Assembly (NCBI GenBank): GCA_013360915.1
Contig: JABWAT010000002.1
Coordinates: forward strand, 508,098-572,097
Reading direction: 5' to 3'
DNA length: 64,000 nt
Origin: Bacteroidota bacterium
GTDB lineage: Bacteria > Bacteroidota > JABWAT01
The position numbers were made by a program, and so were the translations under genes. Positions 8,826 to 60,654 of the stretch are shown here, piece after piece. Below the pieces are notes generated by a model. It did no database searches, had not been told where the DNA came from, and was given only the letters and a program-made list of their open reading frames with translations. The stretch's first letter is position 1. Every line of letters begins with the position of its first letter.

Positions 8826-9499
8826 AATCAATTCAATTCGATCCGGTCCGTTACACGCAGGATACCTGGCGGATATTCAGAATCATGGCCGAATTTACTG
8901 AAGGATTCGAAAAGCTGGGCAGCCTTGGACCGGCGGTTTCTATTTTCGGATCGGCCCGGACCAAACCGGGTGAATACTATTACGAAAAGGCTGTCCGGAT
9001 CGCCCATCTGCTGGCTGAAAAAGGATTTGCCATCATTACCGGTGGCGGCCCGGGAATTATGGAAGCCGGCAACAAGGGTGCAAAGGAAGCCAACGGAATC
9101 AGCGTAGGACTTAACATTGATCTGCCTCATGAGCAGCATCACAATGCCTATATCGACCGTCACATGCTTATTGAATTCGATTATTTCTTTGTGCGTAAAG
9201 TGATGTTTGTTAAATACGCCCAGGGCTTTGTCATGATGCCCGGCGGCTTTGGTACCATGGATGAGATGTTCGAGGCCATCACGCTGATTCAGACCCAAAA
9301 GATTAAACCCGTTCCCATTATCCTGGTTGGAACCGCATTTTGGGGAGGTCTGCTCGACTGGATCAAAACGGCCATGCTGGCCGATGGAAAAATTTCCCCG
9401 GAAGATTTGAATCTGTTTCATGTGACCGACAGTGAGGCCGAAGTCTGTGAAATCATCGAAAATTTTTACAAAGAGCAGGTATTCAGTCCCAATTTCTGA
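8822..9499 (+). CDS. LOG-family protein (TIGR00730), nucleotide 5'-monophosphate nucleosidase
   Basis: Rossmann-fold protein of the LOG/lysine-decarboxylase-like family; characterised members cleave the N-glycosidic bond of (cytokinin) nucleoside monophosphates or other purine nucleotides. The 225-residue sequence has SIFGSART, the GGGPGIMEAGNKGA motif and PGGFGTMDEMFE, where the family's catalytic Arg/Glu lie. GTG start 8822 overlaps the trpG stop. The true substrate cannot be told from sequence. Confidence 0.85.
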   Translation: MKSIQFDPVRYTQDTWRIFRIMAEFTEGFEKLGSLGPAVSIFGSARTKPGEYYYEKAVRIAHLLAEKGFAIITGGGPGIMEAGNKGAKEANGISVGLNIDLPHEQHHNAYIDRHMLIEFDYFFVRKVMFVKYAQGFVMMPGGFGTMDEMFEAITLIQTQKIKPVPIILVGTAFWGGLLDWIKTAMLADGKISPEDLNLFHVTDSEAEVCEIIENFYKEQVFSPNF

Positions 9500-9500
9500 T

Positions 9501-10577
9501 ATGGTCCCCATGATTCTGTTGCTTCTTTTTTTGGGCGGATGCCAGCCCTCTGCTCCTCAACCGGTTTCTGATCCGGCTCACATCAGCCATCAAACGGTGC
9601 TTCCTGCCTATCCCGATACCATGGTGGTTTGCGGGATTCGGTTGCCACTGGAGGATCCTGAAGTACGGGATCGGTTTGAAAGGGAATTCTATAACACCCT
9701 GCACAATGAAAATGTGTCACAGCAAACCATTGCTGCCGCCAATACCGTTTTTCCCATCATTCTTCCCATCATCAGAGAAGCGGGCTTACCCGAGGATCTG
9801 AAATACCTGGCCATTGCTGAATCCAACCTGCGCACCGCAGTCAGCGTGGCGGGGGCAACCGGTGTCTGGCAACTGATGGAACTGGTAGCCCGATCGGAAA
9901 ACCTCAAAATCAATTATTGGGTGGATGAGCGAAATCATCTGGAAAAATCGACCCGGGTGGCCATGACCTTTCTGAAACATCTCCACAAAAAATATGGTGA
10001 CTGGAATCTGGCCTTTGCTGCTTATAACGTCGGGGAAACCAACATCAATGACAACCTGAAGTTCCAGCATGTGAGACGGTTTTTTGATCTGTATCTGAAT
10101 GAAGAAACCAGCCGGTACATCTTCCGGATTTATGCGGCCAAGGCCGTATTTGAGGATCCGACGAAATATGGATTGCCGGCCTATGAGTTTAAAACCGACT
10201 CTTACCGCTATGTGACCATCAACGGGCCGGTGGAAAACCTGACAAAGCTGGCGCTGGAGCAGGGAACCAGTTACCGTCAGCTGAGAATTCTGAATCCCTG
10301 GATCCGGCGCAGGGGTCTGCCGGAAGGTACCTGGACGCTTGCCTTTCCTTCATCATCGGTTCCCGGATCCATTGATCTGGCCGGCTATGAATACACAAAA
10401 AATCCACCGGTCGGAACCACACCATCCGGAGTGGTCACCCACAAGGTAACCGATGGGGATACACTGCTTTCAATCGCCCTGGCCTATGATGTTGAAGTGA
10501 ATGAAATCAGACGATGGAATAATCTGAAGTCAGACATGATCATGGTGGGTCAGCAACTGAAAATCTACCTGAAATAA
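9501..10577 (+). CDS. Lytic transglycosylase lipoprotein, MltD-like, with LysM
   Basis: Predicted periplasmic, membrane-anchored enzyme that cleaves peptidoglycan glycan strands. ATG 9501 opens a short lipoprotein signal peptide ending in the lipobox LGGC. An SLT domain follows with the catalytic Glu in AIAESNLRTAVS, then GATGVWQLM and AAYNVGETNI. One LysM domain (about 45 residues, THKVTDGDTLLSIA...GQQLKIYLK) forms the C-terminus. Length is 358 residues. It starts two bases after the LOG gene ends. The open frame extends upstream, but that would bury the signal peptide. Confidence 0.9.
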   Translation: MVPMILLLLFLGGCQPSAPQPVSDPAHISHQTVLPAYPDTMVVCGIRLPLEDPEVRDRFEREFYNTLHNENVSQQTIAAANTVFPIILPIIREAGLPEDLKYLAIAESNLRTAVSVAGATGVWQLMELVARSENLKINYWVDERNHLEKSTRVAMTFLKHLHKKYGDWNLAFAAYNVGETNINDNLKFQHVRRFFDLYLNEETSRYIFRIYAAKAVFEDPTKYGLPAYEFKTDSYRYVTINGPVENLTKLALEQGTSYRQLRILNPWIRRRGLPEGTWTLAFPSSSVPGSIDLAGYEYTKNPPVGTTPSGVVTHKVTDGDTLLSIALAYDVEVNEIRRWNNLKSDMIMVGQQLKIYLK

Positions 10578-53227: not shown

Positions 53228-55318
53228 ATGAAGTCCCGGAAAAGAAAAACCGACCCATTGAAGTATATCGGATCCGATTTTGAAATTTCAAGAGGGCATC
53301 CGCTTCCGCTGGGTGCCAGTATTCAGCGGGGAGGTATCAACTTTTCGGTCTACTCCAAACATGCCACACAGGTCACTCTGGTGGTGATCAATCCGGAAAC
53401 TCAGGAGATTCAGTATGAATTTCCTTTCAATGAGGAGTACAACCGGACCGGTGATATCTGGCATTTGTTTGTCAAAGACCTGGATGTCAATATCGGGTAC
53501 GGATTCCGGATGGAACGGAAGCATAACCGATACCCGCACATTCACCGGTTTAATGAAGAGTTTGTTTTGCAGGATCCGTATGCCAGAGCACTGGCCGGGG
53601 GTCATGTCTGGAATACCCATCACAAAAAATCCCGGTTTTCGGTAATCTCAAATGATGAGTATGACTGGAAAACCGACCGTCCCCTGAACATTCCTCTCAG
53701 AGATACCATCATCTATGAACTCCATGTCAGAGGCTTTACCGCTCACCCTTCTTCAAAAGTGAAGGACAAGGGTACCTTTTCCGGATTAAAGGAGAAGATA
53801 CCCTACCTGAAGGATCTTGGAATCACAGCAGTTGAATTATTGCCGGTCACCGAGTTTGAAGAAAATGACGATTTTGAGCGGTATGATCCTGTTAATGGAA
53901 GCCGGTTGGTGAATTTCTGGGGTTACAGCCCCATTTCTTTCTTTGCTCCCAAAGCCGCTTATGCAGCAACCGGCGCTTCCCGGGGACAGGTGAGAGAATT
54001 CAAGGACATGGTAAAGGCCTTTCATGCAGCGGGAATTGAGGTGTTCCTGGATGTCGTTTTTAATCACACCGCAGAGGGCAATGAACTCGGTCCAACCTTT
54101 AACTTCAGGGGACTTGATAACGCCACATATTACATTATTGATCCGGTAACCGGTAAATACCACAATTATTCAGGTTGTGGAAATACCATGAACTGTAACC
54201 ATCCCTTTGTCAGGGACTTTATTCTGGATTGCCTCCGTTATTGGGTGACCGAAATGAAGGTTGATGGATTCCGGTTTGATCTGGCCAGTATTTTGGGGAG
54301 AGATACCGACGGGACTGTGTTAAATAACCCTCCGTTACTGGAACGGATCGCCGCCGACCCGGTTCTGTCTAAAACCAAAATCATTGCCGAAGCATGGGAT
54401 GCCGCCGGGCTGTATCAGGTTGGATCTTTCCCTCACTGGCACCGGTGGGCCGAATGGAACGGCAAATTCAGAGATGACATCCGGCGGTTTGTGAAAGGAG
54501 ATCCCGGACTGGCAGGAGAAATTGCGGCCCGCCTGACGGGTAGTGCCGATTTATATGAAAAATCGGGTCGGGCACCCTACGATAGCATCAATTTTATTAC
54601 CAGCCACGATGGTTTCACGATGGCAGATCTGGTTTCCTACAACCGGAAATACAACGAACCAAATGGAGAGAATAATCAGGATGGGTCCAATGACAACCAC
54701 AGCTGGAATTGCGGGGAAGAAGGACCTACCGAGGATCAGCCCATAAGAGAACTCCGGTTCAGACAGATCAAAAACCTGGCCACATTACTGATGGCTTCAA
54801 ACGGGGTCCCGATGTTACTCGCTGGCGATGAATTTGGCCGGACTCAGCAGGGAAATAATAATGCCTATTGCCATGATAACGAAATCAGTTGGGTTAACTG
54901 GCGGCTAAAATCAGAAAACAGCGGGCTGTTCCGGTTCTTTAAACTTCTGATAGCCTTCCGGAAAGCCAACCCCATCCTTCGGCGCGAACGCTTCGATGAG
55001 TACGATATTATCTGGCATGGCTTTAATTTATACGAACCCGATTGGTCAGAAGATGCCCGATGGATTTCGGTTCATTTTTCGGGTGCCAGATATCCTGAAC
55101 TCGAGGGTTGCAAACATATACAGCTGATCGCCAATGCTCATTGGGAACCGCATACTTTTGCCTTACCCAAACTTGTAGGTAAAACATGGTATGTAAAGGT
55201 GAACACGGCCAATGAGTCACCTGCAGATATCTGTTCGGATGGGAAGGAAACAGCCGCTGAGAATCAGGAACGTATTGAGGTGGCTCCGCGTTCAGTCCTG
55301 ATCCTGACCGGACTCTGA
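53228..55318 (+). CDS. glgX: Glycogen debranching enzyme GlgX (isoamylase-type, GH13)
   Basis: Hydrolyses alpha-1,6 branches of glycogen or limit dextrin. 696 residues. An N-terminal CBM48 (PLPLGASIQRGGINFSVYSKHA) precedes the catalytic barrel with DVVFNHTAEGNE, nucleophile Asp in DGFRFDLASILGRD, acid/base Glu in IIAEAWDAAGLYQVG, and FITSHDGFTMADLVSYN. NYSGCGNTMNCNHP is typical of the GlgX/TreX group. A C-terminal beta domain closes it. The 3' end overlaps the opposite lipoprotein gene by 27 bases. Confidence 0.93.
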   Translation: MKSRKRKTDPLKYIGSDFEISRGHPLPLGASIQRGGINFSVYSKHATQVTLVVINPETQEIQYEFPFNEEYNRTGDIWHLFVKDLDVNIGYGFRMERKHNRYPHIHRFNEEFVLQDPYARALAGGHVWNTHHKKSRFSVISNDEYDWKTDRPLNIPLRDTIIYELHVRGFTAHPSSKVKDKGTFSGLKEKIPYLKDLGITAVELLPVTEFEENDDFERYDPVNGSRLVNFWGYSPISFFAPKAAYAATGASRGQVREFKDMVKAFHAAGIEVFLDVVFNHTAEGNELGPTFNFRGLDNATYYIIDPVTGKYHNYSGCGNTMNCNHPFVRDFILDCLRYWVTEMKVDGFRFDLASILGRDTDGTVLNNPPLLERIAADPVLSKTKIIAEAWDAAGLYQVGSFPHWHRWAEWNGKFRDDIRRFVKGDPGLAGEIAARLTGSADLYEKSGRAPYDSINFITSHDGFTMADLVSYNRKYNEPNGENNQDGSNDNHSWNCGEEGPTEDQPIRELRFRQIKNLATLLMASNGVPMLLAGDEFGRTQQGNNNAYCHDNEISWVNWRLKSENSGLFRFFKLLIAFRKANPILRRERFDEYDIIWHGFNLYEPDWSEDARWISVHFSGARYPELEGCKHIQLIANAHWEPHTFALPKLVGKTWYVKVNTANESPADICSDGKETAAENQERIEVAPRSVLILTGL

Positions 55319-55630
55319 GCCATTGCCGGCTACCACTGCTCCCGAGGCAATTTCATTGTTTAAATGGTCCAGGACTCTAACCAGATAAATACCGGGAACC
55401 ACCAGATTTCCTCTGTCATCCTTCTTATCCCATTCATAAATCAGAATGCCCCTCTCAAGAGTATCGGTTCGGATGAGCGTGTGATAGGAATTGGAAATCT
55501 CTGCCCGGGTGATGGTGGTTAATGAAGTCGGACGGGGAAGTTTGAAAACAAGGGTGGTGCTGAGTGAACCTGATTCTTGACAACCAGTCAGAATAAGAAG
55601 AACTACAAAAGTGGTCAGTAACTTTTTCAT
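55292..55630 (-). CDS. Small lipoprotein with FlgD-Ig-like segment
   Basis: 112 residues. Lipoprotein signal peptide with lipobox LTGC at about residues 14-17. The remaining domain ends with IYEWDKKDDRGNLVVPGIYLVRV, a form seen in FlgD-type Ig folds used as C-terminal modules in the FCB group. Start overlaps the end of the upstream barrel-like gene by four bases. Confidence 0.75.
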   Translation of the reverse strand: MKKLLTTFVVLLILTGCQESGSLSTTLVFKLPRPTSLTTITRAEISNSYHTLIRTDTLERGILIYEWDKKDDRGNLVVPGIYLVRVLDHLNNEIASGAVVAGNGSESGQDQD

Positions 55631-56412
55631 AGCGTGAGTCCCACAACCAGTGAAACATATAACATTTCAAATGAAGGCTGATATCCATCAGATGATTTGC
55701 CTGAGGCAGGCTTCTTTTTGATATCTCTGGAAATATGAAACTGATACCCGGGGCGGACTTCGAAATAGCCGATTTTGTTCTCAAAATACCGGCCCACCAT
55801 GACTGATACGCCGGCCACTCTGCCCTCAATGTTCAGTATATCCTTGATGATTTTCTCGGAACCGTTTGTTTTGTAACTCAATGCCTCCCGGCGGGTATCG
55901 TTTACCCATCCGAAAAAGCCTCCAAAACCGTAATTGAGCTCCGAATTTTTAACTGAAACCGAAAAGAGTCGTTCCAGATGGATACTGACGGTTTGCAAGC
56001 GATGTTCGATCAGAAAATCGCCCGTTCCGCTTTCCTGGAAAAAATTGAATGAATTAAAGAAACCTTCCATGCCGGAAGATTTTGAATTGATCAGTTCTGA
56101 CCGGATGGAAAGCCGGAGACGCAGACCGGTATCCCGGTTAAAGACGGAGGTTCCAAAATGAAACGATGGTCCGGCAGACAGATCTGATCCGTCGAGATCG
56201 TACTGTTTATCCAGTGTTTCCAGAAGTTTGTCATCCTGACCGAAGGAATACTGGCTGTAGCCGAGCCCTCCCTCAATCTGGATCAGCAGATCCCGGCCTG
56301 ATTCAAGCGGAATGGTCCGCTTCTGGATCTGTGTAACGGCCTGTTGGGGAATAATCATCAGTAAAACAAGGGCAATCACCAGAAAATACAAGGAGCGATG
56401 TAAAGACATCAT
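55627..56412 (-). CDS. Outer-membrane beta-barrel-like protein
   Basis: Not assigned to a named family. 261 residues with a signal peptide (LYFLVIALVLLMIIPQQAVTQ), then alternating amphipathic strands (LRLRLSIRSEL, LNYGFGGFFGWV, YFEVRPGYQFHIS) and the closing segment VSLVVGLTL that fits an outer-membrane barrel terminus. Co-transcribed with the following lipoprotein gene. Confidence 0.7.
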   Translation of the reverse strand: MMSLHRSLYFLVIALVLLMIIPQQAVTQIQKRTIPLESGRDLLIQIEGGLGYSQYSFGQDDKLLETLDKQYDLDGSDLSAGPSFHFGTSVFNRDTGLRLRLSIRSELINSKSSGMEGFFNSFNFFQESGTGDFLIEHRLQTVSIHLERLFSVSVKNSELNYGFGGFFGWVNDTRREALSYKTNGSEKIIKDILNIEGRVAGVSVMVGRYFENKIGYFEVRPGYQFHISRDIKKKPASGKSSDGYQPSFEMLYVSLVVGLTL

Positions 56413-56433: not shown

Positions 56434-57870
56434 TCAGGAACGGGTCATAACAACGATTGACTCTATATGCCAGGTATGCGGAAACATATCCACCGGTTGA
56501 ACAGGTCCGGGCAGATACCTGGCTTCTCTCAGGATGGACATGTCCCGTGCCTGTGTCACCGGATTACATGAAATATATATAATCCGATCCGCTCCAAGTG
56601 AGGGCAATTTCCGTGTCAGTGCATCCGGAAGACCGGCACGCGGAGGATCGACCACTACAATATCGGGTTGCCCGTACTGAACGGACCAGCTATCCAACTC
56701 GTCAAACTGCTTCGACAAATCACCACAGAAAAAGTCAGCGTTGGTGATCCCGTTCAACCGGGCATTTTCCTTCGCATTTTCAACAGCTTCTGGTCTGATC
56801 TCCATTCCAACCACCTTTCTGACTGAACGGGCAGCGAGCAGGCCAATGGTGCCCGGCCCGCAAAACAGGTCATACAAATGGTCGTTCCCGGTTAGCTGGG
56901 CCATCCTGAAAGCGGTTTCAAACAATTTTTCAGCCTGATACGTGTTTGTCTGGAAAAAAGATTCCGGATGAATCCTGAAACGGATTCCACCCAGCATTTC
57001 TTCCAGATGATCTTTTCCTGCCAGAATCCGGGTTCCTTCTCCCCGGGGAACGGGCCCCGGTCCGGAATGGGTGATCTGAATCAGACTGGTAATTTCTGGA
57101 AAATGGGCGGTTAACCGGGTAGCCAGTCGATCCAGCAATGCCCTGTCATCAACCGTTGTGACCAGAATGACCATCAAATCGGCGGTGTGTGCTGCCTGTC
57201 TGATAATCAGGGATCTCCAGAAGCCGTGATGCGATTTTATGGACCAGGGCAGAAAACCCGAGTCCAGGGAAAAAGCTTTAATTTCTTCTAGCAGCCGGTT
57301 GGCAACGGGGGATTGTAACAGGCAATGATCAATATCCACTATCTTATCAAATCGCCCGGGCACATGAAGTCCAAGGGCAAAATTCGAAGGTTTTTCACTC
57401 AGTCCGGCTGTTTCGCTGGTAAGCAACCAACGGTTATCAGAAAAAGTGAAATCCATTTTATTACGGTACCCCGTTTCCCGCGGAGAACCGAGAGTTGGGA
57501 GAACCGTCAGATCTTTGAAACCGCCGATACGCTGCATGGCATCCATGACGTGTTCGCGTTTGGCTTCAAGCTGATGTGAATACCCGAAATGCTGCCATTT
57601 ACAGCCTCCGCAAGTACCAAAATGATGGCAACCCGGCTCTGTCCTTCCGGGGCCTGCAGAAACCACATCCACCAATCTGGCTTCCGCATAGGTTCCCTTT
57701 ACTTTTTGTATCTGAATCGAAACCACGTCACCGGGTATTCCACCATTCACAAAGAGGACAAACTCGTTGTACCGGGCAATGCTTTTTCCTTCCAGACCCG
57801 TCCGCTCAATGGTGACCTGAAGCATTTCACCACGCCGGACCGGCAATTCTCTGGCTGTTTCCTTTGACAT
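56434..57870 (-). CDS. rlmD: Class I SAM-dependent (uracil-5-)-methyltransferase, TrmA/RlmD family
   Basis: Makes m5U in 23S rRNA or tRNA; which target is uncertain. 478 residues. An N-terminal TRAM domain (about 12-70) precedes an iron-sulphur-type cysteine set CHHFGTCGGCKWQH plus a later Cys in DIDHCLLQ. The methyltransferase part has LYDLFCGPGTIGL, VVVDPPRAG and the catalytic Cys in YISCNPVTQARD. Divergent from the P-loop gene across a 103-base AT-rich gap. Confidence 0.9.
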   Translation of the reverse strand: MSKETARELPVRRGEMLQVTIERTGLEGKSIARYNEFVLFVNGGIPGDVVSIQIQKVKGTYAEARLVDVVSAGPGRTEPGCHHFGTCGGCKWQHFGYSHQLEAKREHVMDAMQRIGGFKDLTVLPTLGSPRETGYRNKMDFTFSDNRWLLTSETAGLSEKPSNFALGLHVPGRFDKIVDIDHCLLQSPVANRLLEEIKAFSLDSGFLPWSIKSHHGFWRSLIIRQAAHTADLMVILVTTVDDRALLDRLATRLTAHFPEITSLIQITHSGPGPVPRGEGTRILAGKDHLEEMLGGIRFRIHPESFFQTNTYQAEKLFETAFRMAQLTGNDHLYDLFCGPGTIGLLAARSVRKVVGMEIRPEAVENAKENARLNGITNADFFCGDLSKQFDELDSWSVQYGQPDIVVVDPPRAGLPDALTRKLPSLGADRIIYISCNPVTQARDMSILREARYLPGPVQPVDMFPHTWHIESIVVMTRS

Positions 57871-57973: not shown

Positions 57974-58558
57974 TTGCAAAACATATACCCGGAACCAATC
58001 GGAATCCCTGGTACCCTGGTCCGGTTTTCTGCCGGATCGGTGGCCTTAACCGGACTTCCCGGAACTGGGAAAACAACTCTCGGGTATCTGTTGTGTCAGG
58101 AAACCGGTGTTTTGGTATCAGACGGTCGTCTGCATGTAACAATGACAGATGGACTGATGGCTCATCCGCCCTTTAACCCGCACTTTCATTTCGGGTTTCC
58201 GCCCATGTTGCCGGGGCTGATTCATGGGGAACCGGAATCAATTGTTGATCAGGAATCCGGAAAACTGATCACCCTGGTTAATCCGGATTGTTCTGATACC
58301 GGGCTTCCAGCGAAAATTACCGATCTGTTCTGGCTCGAAAGGACCGGGTTGAAACAGCCCACCATTCTTCGGGCCTCGGTAACCGAATTATCCTCATTAC
58401 TGAGGCAGAATCGGTACCCGATTCCTGATCAGGGGTTAGAAGGCTGCCGGTTATTCAGGCTCCGGATTCCGGGTGATCCCGGTGCTTTCAGAAAAGCCGC
58501 CAAACAGATTGGTTCTGAAATGAAGGCACTGCATCTCATTCAACCAACCTCAATATAA
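57974..58558 (+). CDS. HPr-kinase-like P-loop protein
   Basis: 194 residues starting at TTG 57974; there is no good ATG. Walker A GLPGTGKTT is at residues 27-35 and is followed by LVSDGRLHV, a layout resembling the C-terminal catalytic domain of HPr kinase/phosphorylase (P-loop then an Asp-bearing strand). The N-terminal HPrK domain and its signature sequence are absent, so similarity is partial. The rest, including DLFWLERTG and a C-terminal helix, is unrecognised. A HAD-like gene follows after nine bases. Confidence 0.6.
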   Translation: MQNIYPEPIGIPGTLVRFSAGSVALTGLPGTGKTTLGYLLCQETGVLVSDGRLHVTMTDGLMAHPPFNPHFHFGFPPMLPGLIHGEPESIVDQESGKLITLVNPDCSDTGLPAKITDLFWLERTGLKQPTILRASVTELSSLLRQNRYPIPDQGLEGCRLFRLRIPGDPGAFRKAAKQIGSEMKALHLIQPTSI

Positions 58559-58567
58559 AGGTCTCAC

Positions 58568-59290
58568 ATGATTCGTGGTGTTTTATACAGTCTCAATGCC
58601 CTGATGGGTGAGTCCTATGAAGATGAGGAATTTCTTGACACTCCTGTGCGAATCCGGCGACGCGAATGTCCTGAACTGCGCGCCTTTATCGGTCCGCACA
58701 AGTGGCGGACCCGGGTGCTTGAAGACATCCGGCTGCGTGTAAAAAGCGAGGTTCTGGCCGGGAAACCCCGCAATGAATATCCAGATATACTTAAACTGAT
58801 AAGGAATGTCCTGTCTCATCATTCAGACAAACCGGTTCCGGATGATCTTCCAGAAAAAGTGTTGAGGATTCTTGACCGGTTCTCTGGTTTTACCTTTTCA
58901 GATCTGACCATGCGGGTCATTCAGGAAGTGTACCGTCGGAATTATGTGCAGGCCATTGTGGCGAACAGTATCATACCTGCCCGTTTTTATTCAGATCACT
59001 TCACTCAGTCCGGCGTCAGCCGGTTTTTCGAGGCCATTATTACCAGCTCGGATCTGGAAGTCGCCAAACCCGATCCTGCCATTTTCGAATTTGCTCTTGA
59101 AGCCCTGCAGTTCAAGGCAGAAGAGCTTATTTTTGTGGCTGATTCGCTTGAAACAGATGTGATGGGCGGGGTTCAGATGGGAATCCGTACCATCCTGCTG
59201 AACCGATACACCCGCATTCCGGTCGTTCCACGTGGTGTGGAAGTGGTTCAGGATTTCAGGCAGCTTATTGCAAAATTACAACCTCTATAA
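58568..59290 (+). CDS. HAD-superfamily protein lacking catalytic aspartates
   Basis: 240 residues with the HAD-IA fold order, but motif I reads GVLYSLNAL: the nucleophile Asp is Ser8 and the acid/base Asp is Asn10. Motif II Ser134, motif III Lys167 (in KPDPAIF) and motif IV Asp192/Asp197 ([11 protein letters not shown]) are kept. Without Asp8 the phosphohydrolase reaction is not expected, so it is probably a binding or regulatory pseudoenzyme. It sits between the P-loop gene and deoC. Confidence 0.82.
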
Positions 59291-59297
59291 TTTGCCC

Positions 59298-60182
59298 ATG
59301 GAAAATCAATCAAAACTGATCGAAAAGGTCATTCTGTCCGTCGTCCGTGAGGATACACGCCAGAAATCGGAACCTGTTAAATGTCACGATACCCTGTATG
59401 GAACCTGTGTACATGGCTGGGATTGCCCATCGCACAAGGCGCAGGCCGTCAACCGGATTATTGAGGCAGGTGCATGCCGGGTTGGCAACTCCATCGGAAG
59501 CTGTGATGTGATCCCGGCTGTAGCCCGGATGATAGATCACACCCTTCTTAAACCGGAGGCCACAGAAAAGGACGTAAGGCAGTTGTGCAAGGAGGCTGCA
59601 CAATATCAGTTTGCATCAGTCTGCATTAATCCCGGTTGGATCCCGCTGGCTGCTTCCATGTTGCGTGATACAAAGGTGGATGTGTGTACAGTGATCGGAT
59701 TTCCATTGGGAGCTACCAGCACGAAAGCCAAACGTGAAGAGACCCGTATTGCCATCGAAGAAGGCGCCACCGAAGTGGACATGGTTATTAATGTGGGTTG
59801 GCTGAAATCAGGATTGACCGATGCCGTTGAGGATGATATACGGGCGGTTGTTGAACAGGCCGCCTGTAACCACGTGCTGACCAAAGTGATTCTGGAAACC
59901 TGTCTGCTGACCGACGAGGAAAAAGTAATTGCCTGTATTCTGTCGAAAAATGCAGGAGCTCATTTTGTGAAAACCTCCACCGGTTTTAGCAAAGGCGGAG
60001 CAACTGTGCAGGACATTGCCCTGATGCGTCAGGTTGTGGGTCCGATGATGGGTGTTAAAGCATCGGGCGGAGTACGCTCCTGGGAAGATGCCGAGAAGAT
60101 GATCGCCTCCGGTGCAAACCGCATCGGTGCAAGTGCCTCTGTAGCCATCGTGAAACATGAAACCAGTAAAAGTACTTATTAG
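59298..60182 (+). CDS. deoC: Deoxyribose-phosphate aldolase with N-terminal extension
   Basis: Cleaves 2-deoxyribose-5-phosphate to glyceraldehyde-3-phosphate and acetaldehyde. 294 residues from ATG 59298. The TIM-barrel core starts near residue 78 ([12 protein letters not shown]), has [14 protein letters not shown] with the catalytic Asp, Schiff-base Lys in [13 protein letters not shown] and Lys in [10 protein letters not shown]. Before it lies an extra segment of about 75 residues with five Cys (29, 37, 43, 60, 69), absent from E. coli DeoC. The 3' end overlaps the SPOR gene by 26 bases. Confidence 0.92.
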
Positions 60183-60654
60183 TCTGCTGCTTCCGGCAGT
60201 CATTTCCTGCGGTAGCACCCCTCAGGGAACCGGACCAGCATCGGGAGGAGCAAAGGTCACTGCGGCAGCCAACCCGCTCGATACTTTACGCTGGAACCTG
60301 ACCCGAACGCCTTTTGAACCCAGAATGACTCCGAAAATTATCGGACCCAACCTGTCCGATGAATGGCTCAGAATTCAGACGGATACCACAGAATCGGCCG
60401 GTGAGGAGACTCTCCTTGGCAGCAGGGGATTCAGAATTCAGGTTTTTGCAAAACCGGACAGGGCATTGGCTGAACAGGTTCTGATGGAAGCCCGGCTGAT
60501 TTCCGGGTTACCTGCTTATTTGTCCTATCAGGCTCCTAATTATATCGTCAGGATTGGGAATTTTCCCAATGAGGCCCGTGCGCGTGCCAGTCTGGAATCA
60601 CTGGAAAACCGATACCCGAATGGCACCGTGGTGCCGGATTTTATAGAAAAATAG
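60157..60654 (+). CDS. SPOR-domain lipoprotein
   Basis: 165 residues. Signal peptide with lipobox ISCG near residue 18. A disordered linker is followed by a SPOR domain in the C-terminal 75 residues ([40 protein letters not shown]). SPOR domains bind denuded peptidoglycan at division sites. Its ATG lies inside deoC. Confidence 0.85.

Follow-up and report, generated by a model that had tools for sequence, protein, structure and literature searches.

Bacterial pseudoenzymes of the HAD fold are, to our knowledge, rarely described, and a literature search for HAD pseudophosphatases gave one paper, on Entamoeba. Described proteins closest to the one considered here are family IA hydrolases: YjjG/YfnB (TIGR02254), CTE7 (TIGR02253), PH0459 (1x42), 3qnm and NANP/HDHD4. 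HAD phosphotransferases use the aspartate of motif I (PMC7614388; established knowledge). Plant ITPK4 has an N-terminal HAD-like domain for which neither phosphatase nor dehalogenase activity has been reported (PMC7614388).

In the 64,000-nucleotide stretch of DNA analysed here (the window), a gene for a HAD protein devoid of both motif I aspartates (pseudo-HAD) lies between a gene for a P-loop protein resembling HPr kinase (HprK-like protein) and deoC. The pseudo-HAD shares its fold, cap position and motif III Lys with the hydrolases listed above, and their acidic motif IV is found in the members from the GTDB family of the window genome (f1). Motif I, which is D-x-D in family IA hydrolases, reads S-x-N/S in f1 and S-x-D in a second branch, while the Ser/Thr of motif II is absent from the window protein. 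As in plant ITPK4, where a HAD fold is joined to a kinase-type protein (PMC7614388), the pseudo-HAD stands beside such a protein. The ITPK4 domain is, however, of plant origin, capless, fused to an ATP-grasp kinase and not related to the pseudo-HAD subfamily.

HPr kinase (HprK/P) is a serine kinase by family, normally phosphorylating a serine, which in HPr is Ser46. The L. casei enzyme carries an adjacent pair of aspartates, D178-D179 (PMC1885854). The HprK-like protein has the P-loop, the catalytic-Asp strand and the predicted fold in common with HprK/P (PF07475, TIGR00679; 1jb1, 1ko7, 1knx), whereas it has no N-terminal domain and no EIRGxGI signature, and its second Asp is replaced by Gly.

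DeoC proteins of the kind encoded here are known in sugar phosphate utilizing (SPU) microcompartments (PMC4207490). With these systems the window genome shares DeoC, a PduS-like protein and genes for BMC shell proteins; unlike them, the window operon is without a shell gene and no PduL was found, so that encapsulation of DeoC is at most a possibility here.

Gene organization and selection

The locus comprises the following genes (window coordinates):

56434-57870, divergent to the block: 23S rRNA methyltransferase type gene, upstream neighbour of the hprK-like gene
57974..58558, + strand: hprK-like gene, 194 aa, TTG start, Walker A GLPGTGKTT
58568..59290, + strand: pseudo-HAD gene, 240 aa, HAD family IA, 9-bp gap to the hprK-like gene
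59298..60182, + strand: deoC, ATG start, 7-bp gap after the pseudo-HAD stop
60157..60654, + strand: SPOR-domain protein gene, lipoprotein-like signal, overlapping the end of deoC and closing the conserved block

The last four genes, all in one direction, form a tight conserved operon. The block is present in all four sequenced f1 genomes (the window genome and G001-G003, the MAGs of loci L031-L033), flanked alike in each by the methyltransferase and uvrB genes. A scan for promoters and terminators gave no signal clearly above shuffled sequences. The initial annotation had placed the hprK-like and pseudo-HAD genes ahead of deoC, which was borne out by a TIGR00126 equivalog score of 291 bits (cut-off 117) for the product of the gene directly downstream. 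Both reading frames are open in all genomes carrying them, and dN/dS for the closest f1 pair was 0.12 (HprK-like), 0.09 (HAD) and 0.02 (deoC). Given the first two values, the hprK-like and pseudo-HAD genes are real, functional and under purifying selection.

A HAD protein without the motif I aspartates

The best profile matches of the pseudo-HAD were HAD_2 (1.2e-14, Pfam), YjjG (6e-20) and CTE7 (1.3e-19), which assigns it to the family IA hydrolases; subfamily scores lay far below the cut-offs, and the matches covered mostly the C-terminal half. The predicted fold, a low-confidence model (mean pLDDT 67), is a HAD core with a family IA C1 cap (Foldseek E 5.8e-11 to 2w4m).

Motif I of the window protein reads Y-S8-L-N10-A-L, confirming that Ser8 and Asn10 stand in place of both aspartates as initially annotated. 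Motifs II to IV had been described as kept, which holds for Lys167 of motif III and for Asp192 and Asp197 of motif IV, all invariant across the f1 proteins. It does not hold for motif II, where the window protein has Ala132 at the Ser/Thr position and its three f1 orthologues have Ser. With the nucleophile gone, the protein is very probably a pseudoenzyme.

A second branch with the same serine

A profile built from the f1 proteins found one full-length relative outside f1 (G124, E 5e-26). After this sequence was added, the pseudo-HAD was recovered from 11 genomes of the same order, in families f26, f5 and f49, and from none of the ~85 genomes of f8, a large family of that order. The order apparently represents basal Chlorobiales, f8 being inferred to be Chlorobiaceae.

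In all 11 second-branch proteins motif I reads F-S-L-D, the nucleophile being Ser and the second Asp kept. The remaining motif losses differ from those in f1: motif II is Ala or Gly, and the first motif IV Asp (D192) is Ser or Thr. Across both branches, Ser8, Lys167 and Asp197 are invariant (15 of 15 proteins, 4 from f1 and 11 from the second branch). Conservation of Asn10, looked for together with that of Ser8, was not found: Asn at position 10 is confined to the window protein, the other f1 proteins having Ser there and the second branch Asp. Ser8 is encoded by AGY in most genes and by TCT in one, so it is the residue and not the codon that has been kept. The nearest catalytic HADs all carry the motif I Asp. 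A search of 394 phylum genomes found no orthologue with an intact DxD, which would have pointed to local mutation, and the nearest relatives all have Ser8; a merely local change in motif I was rejected on these grounds.

A joint profile, built from 14 of the 15 pseudo-HADs, gave 294-361 bits for all 15 in a search of the phylum (303 bits for G287, which lay outside the model), no other sequence exceeding 82 bits. Profile-profile comparison of f1 with the second branch aligned 232 columns, motif I among them (E 1.2e-27). In trees, the best topologies grouped both branches. Support depended on the choice of rows and columns and reached 95/83, falling to 58/70 when long rows and the columns of motif I were taken out. 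A single origin of the two branches is likely.

The second-branch genes stand in another context, in which a yacP-like NYN gene, the pseudo-HAD gene and often a chorismate mutase gene are followed by mltG/yceG. This order was seen, for instance, at L077 1035-2737 and L073 856-3356. At the second-branch loci read, neither a short hprK-like gene nor an adjacent deoC was present.

By these comparisons, the loss in motif I is no local event but marks a previously unlabelled family of HAD pseudoenzymes in Bacteroidota/Chlorobiales-type genomes. Replacement of the nucleophile by one invariant residue in two lineages would mean that a dead fold was selected for a non-catalytic job. Since all members carry the same Ser, binding or regulation is the probable reason for the protein's retention, and the family lends itself to testing whether a phosphatase fold has become a sensor or scaffold.

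The HprK-like protein

The HprK-like protein corresponds to the catalytic domain of HprK/P only, with Walker A at residues 27-34 and a length of 194-196 aa in the family. The window protein matched no Pfam family above cut-off and was not matched by TIGR00679. One orthologue passed the Hpr_kinase_C gathering score (35.4 versus 33.3 bits; Pfam PF07475), and two scored 35.9 and 22.2 bits with TIGR00679, of which the cut-off is 240. The three f1 orthologues are 22-23% identical to the window protein, as against 44-46% for the pseudo-HAD; the hprK-like gene evolves fast.

When a four-sequence profile was compared with the PDB, HprK structures ranked first (1jb1, E 2.9e-6). The profile was aligned to 1jb1 residues 25-79, placing the P-loop in its HprK context, and the likeness in sequence ended after ~55 residues. 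The AlphaFold model, of low confidence (pLDDT 62, poor at residues 56-112), matched HprK/P first and then PEP carboxykinase, which we take to be two members of one fold group. The initial description of a P-loop protein resembling the catalytic part of HPr kinase is thus sustained by the orthologue's Pfam score, the PDB ranking and the predicted fold. The P-loop and Asp50 are invariant in all four f1 proteins. Asp50 aligns with HprK D178, and Gly51 replaces D179, again in all four.

Full-length matches among 394 phylum genomes were confined to the four f1 genomes (243-340 bits). The next-best match reached 33 bits over the P-loop region only, and matches below the four f1 ones were to the P-loop region, mostly within HprK frames of 340-400 aa. 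A canonical HprK is encoded elsewhere in the window genome (G000:C1:743948, 343 aa, 'MEIRGVGIIDI', TIGR00679 359.6 bits). Because this complete enzyme is present, the HprK-like protein was rejected as the HPr kinase of the organism; without an N-terminal domain, and without the EIRGxGI signature that can be read in the canonical protein, it is by sequence a degenerate HprK-fold paralogue.

Association of the two genes

The hprK-like and pseudo-HAD genes are adjacent in all four f1 genomes. The kinase-HAD pair put forward in the initial annotation stands to that extent and does not extend further: both genes co-occur throughout f1, and the 11 second-branch genomes hold the pseudo-HAD gene alone, with other neighbours and no short hprK-like gene. 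A general kinase-HAD pair was therefore not supported. The presence of the pseudo-HAD without the short kinase argues that the pseudo-HAD family is older than, and independent of, the pairing, the HprK-like partner appearing to be an invention of f1 alone. Within f1, a functional pair has somewhat less than an even chance, and phospho-sensing by the two proteins is possible. A degenerate HprK domain acting as neighbour of a pseudo-HAD would give HprK-like proteins a place outside PTS regulation.

DeoC and microcompartment genes

Each f1 genome gave a single DeoC match, the deoC of the window being the only one found in its genome. The f1 proteins carry a conserved N-terminal extension of ~75 aa, which has a helix-like start with a conserved LxEKxIxSxxxD-like sequence, followed in the window protein by a C-x7-C-x5-C segment. 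The hydrophobic moment of this start was not significant relative to shuffled sequences, and an encapsulation peptide on DeoC is suggestive only. Extensions like those of f1 were found in other families (G006, G010, G014, G018). Genomes with this extension sometimes carry BMC genes on the same contig, 8 kb away in G018. In G006, a SPOR-domain-like gene directly follows deoC without the HprK-like/pseudo-HAD pair (L063 3356-4870).

BMC shell genes occur in all four f1 genomes. The window genome encodes four BMC domains and a PduS-like protein, with the shell genes at two places:

G000:C4:14259-14774 (L115 ~9260-9775): BMC shell gene
G000:C11:36953-37462 (L116 8924-9640): BMC shell gene

One of the two is a double-domain gene beside the PduS-like gene. 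A PduL-type phosphotransacylase was searched for and not found, and the metabolosome of the window lineage would appear to be incomplete or scattered.

In the order of the second branch, pseudo-HAD and deoC occur together in 9 genomes and both are absent from nearly all f8 genomes, the exceptions being G279, G287, G337 and G251. This co-distribution mostly reflects one phylogenetic split, and as evidence for a link it is weak. A single BMC shell gene (L062 1397-1672) lies 2.6 kb from the pseudo-HAD gene in G124. This proximity was taken as coincidence, since none of the other second-branch loci read shows it and G086 has the pseudo-HAD without a BMC gene.

Proposed function and alternatives

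We infer that the pseudo-HAD would no longer hydrolyse phosphoesters and that the residues left in its pocket (Lys167, Asp192/Asp197) would still let it bind another protein or a phosphorylated ligand. In f1, together with the HprK-like protein as ATP/GTP-binding partner, it could serve the DeoC pathway as a module for regulation or assembly. This pathway breaks down deoxyribose 5-phosphate and may be connected with the microcompartment for which the genome carries shell genes. That a non-catalytic HAD binding a phospholigand or protein and an NTP-binding protein of HprK fold tune DeoC-linked metabolism is proposed tentatively. The operon order, the 7-9 bp gaps and the presence of the block in every f1 genome are in favour, as are the predicted HAD and HprK/PEPCK folds and the invariance of Walker A and D50. 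Evidence to the contrary is that the second-branch pseudo-HAD lies beside neither deoC nor a short kinase; that the hprK-like gene evolves fast, with Gly for the second HprK Asp and a poor model over residues 56-112; and that no PduL-type enzyme was found and the helix-like start of DeoC is not significantly amphipathic. A bolder version is considered unlikely: in a family of HAD pseudophosphatases with the nucleophile Asp fixed as Ser, one branch would have recruited a degenerate NTPase of HPr-kinase fold, yielding a phospho-ligand-gated regulator of deoxyribose-phosphate breakdown, possibly phosphorylated at Ser8.

Equally likely as the DeoC module, and held just as tentatively, is that the pseudo-HAD stands alone, as a pseudoenzyme whose old and separate role, that of a protein scaffold or ligand sensor, has nothing to do with deoxyribose. 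Its placement in f1 would then result from operon shuffling, with no joint action with the HprK-like protein. The gene order of the second branch (yacP, pseudo-HAD, often chorismate mutase, mltG), with neither a short hprK-like gene nor a nearby deoC, agrees with this, and so do the adjacency of deoC and the SPOR gene without the pair in G006 and the far lower conservation of the HprK-like protein (22-23% versus 44-46% identity). Incidental placement is harder to reconcile with the strict adjacency in all four f1 genomes despite their deep divergence, and with gaps of 9 and 7 bp in the window.

Whether acting within the DeoC module or separately, a non-catalytic protein is preferred to one still catalytic with another nucleophile or a non-hydrolytic chemistry. 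The latter is quite unlikely: Lys167, Asp192 and Asp197 are kept in f1 and the rest of the fold is intact, yet HAD phosphotransferases use the motif I Asp (PMC7614388) and the second branch has also lost the first motif IV Asp (to Ser or Thr), with Ala or Gly in motif II.

It is very unlikely that Ser8 is a phospho-acceptor, phosphorylated by the HprK-like protein, the phosphoserine imitating the phospho-aspartyl intermediate that active HADs form and so acting as a switch. The invariance of Ser8 in 15 of 15 proteins while position 10 varies among D, N and S, and that of D50, aligned to HprK D178, would fit such a role. It is weakened by the second branch, in which Ser8 is present but a short HprK-like protein is not, by the lack of the second Asp in the HprK-like protein of f1, and by the position of Ser8, which would sit at the bottom of the HAD pocket beneath the cap.

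Chance or decay, that is a degenerating HAD pseudogene beside an unrelated ATPase, is hardly credible and largely refuted: the HprK-like protein is divergent and has a TTG start, but the frames are open in all genomes, dN/dS is about 0.1 and residues are invariant across two branches.

Small secreted proteins near the block

At 55292-56412 of the window, between glgX and the methyltransferase gene, two small secreted proteins (lipoprotein-like, beta-rich) are encoded. The sister MAGs carry this pair too, either once or as two copies in tandem (L031-L033).
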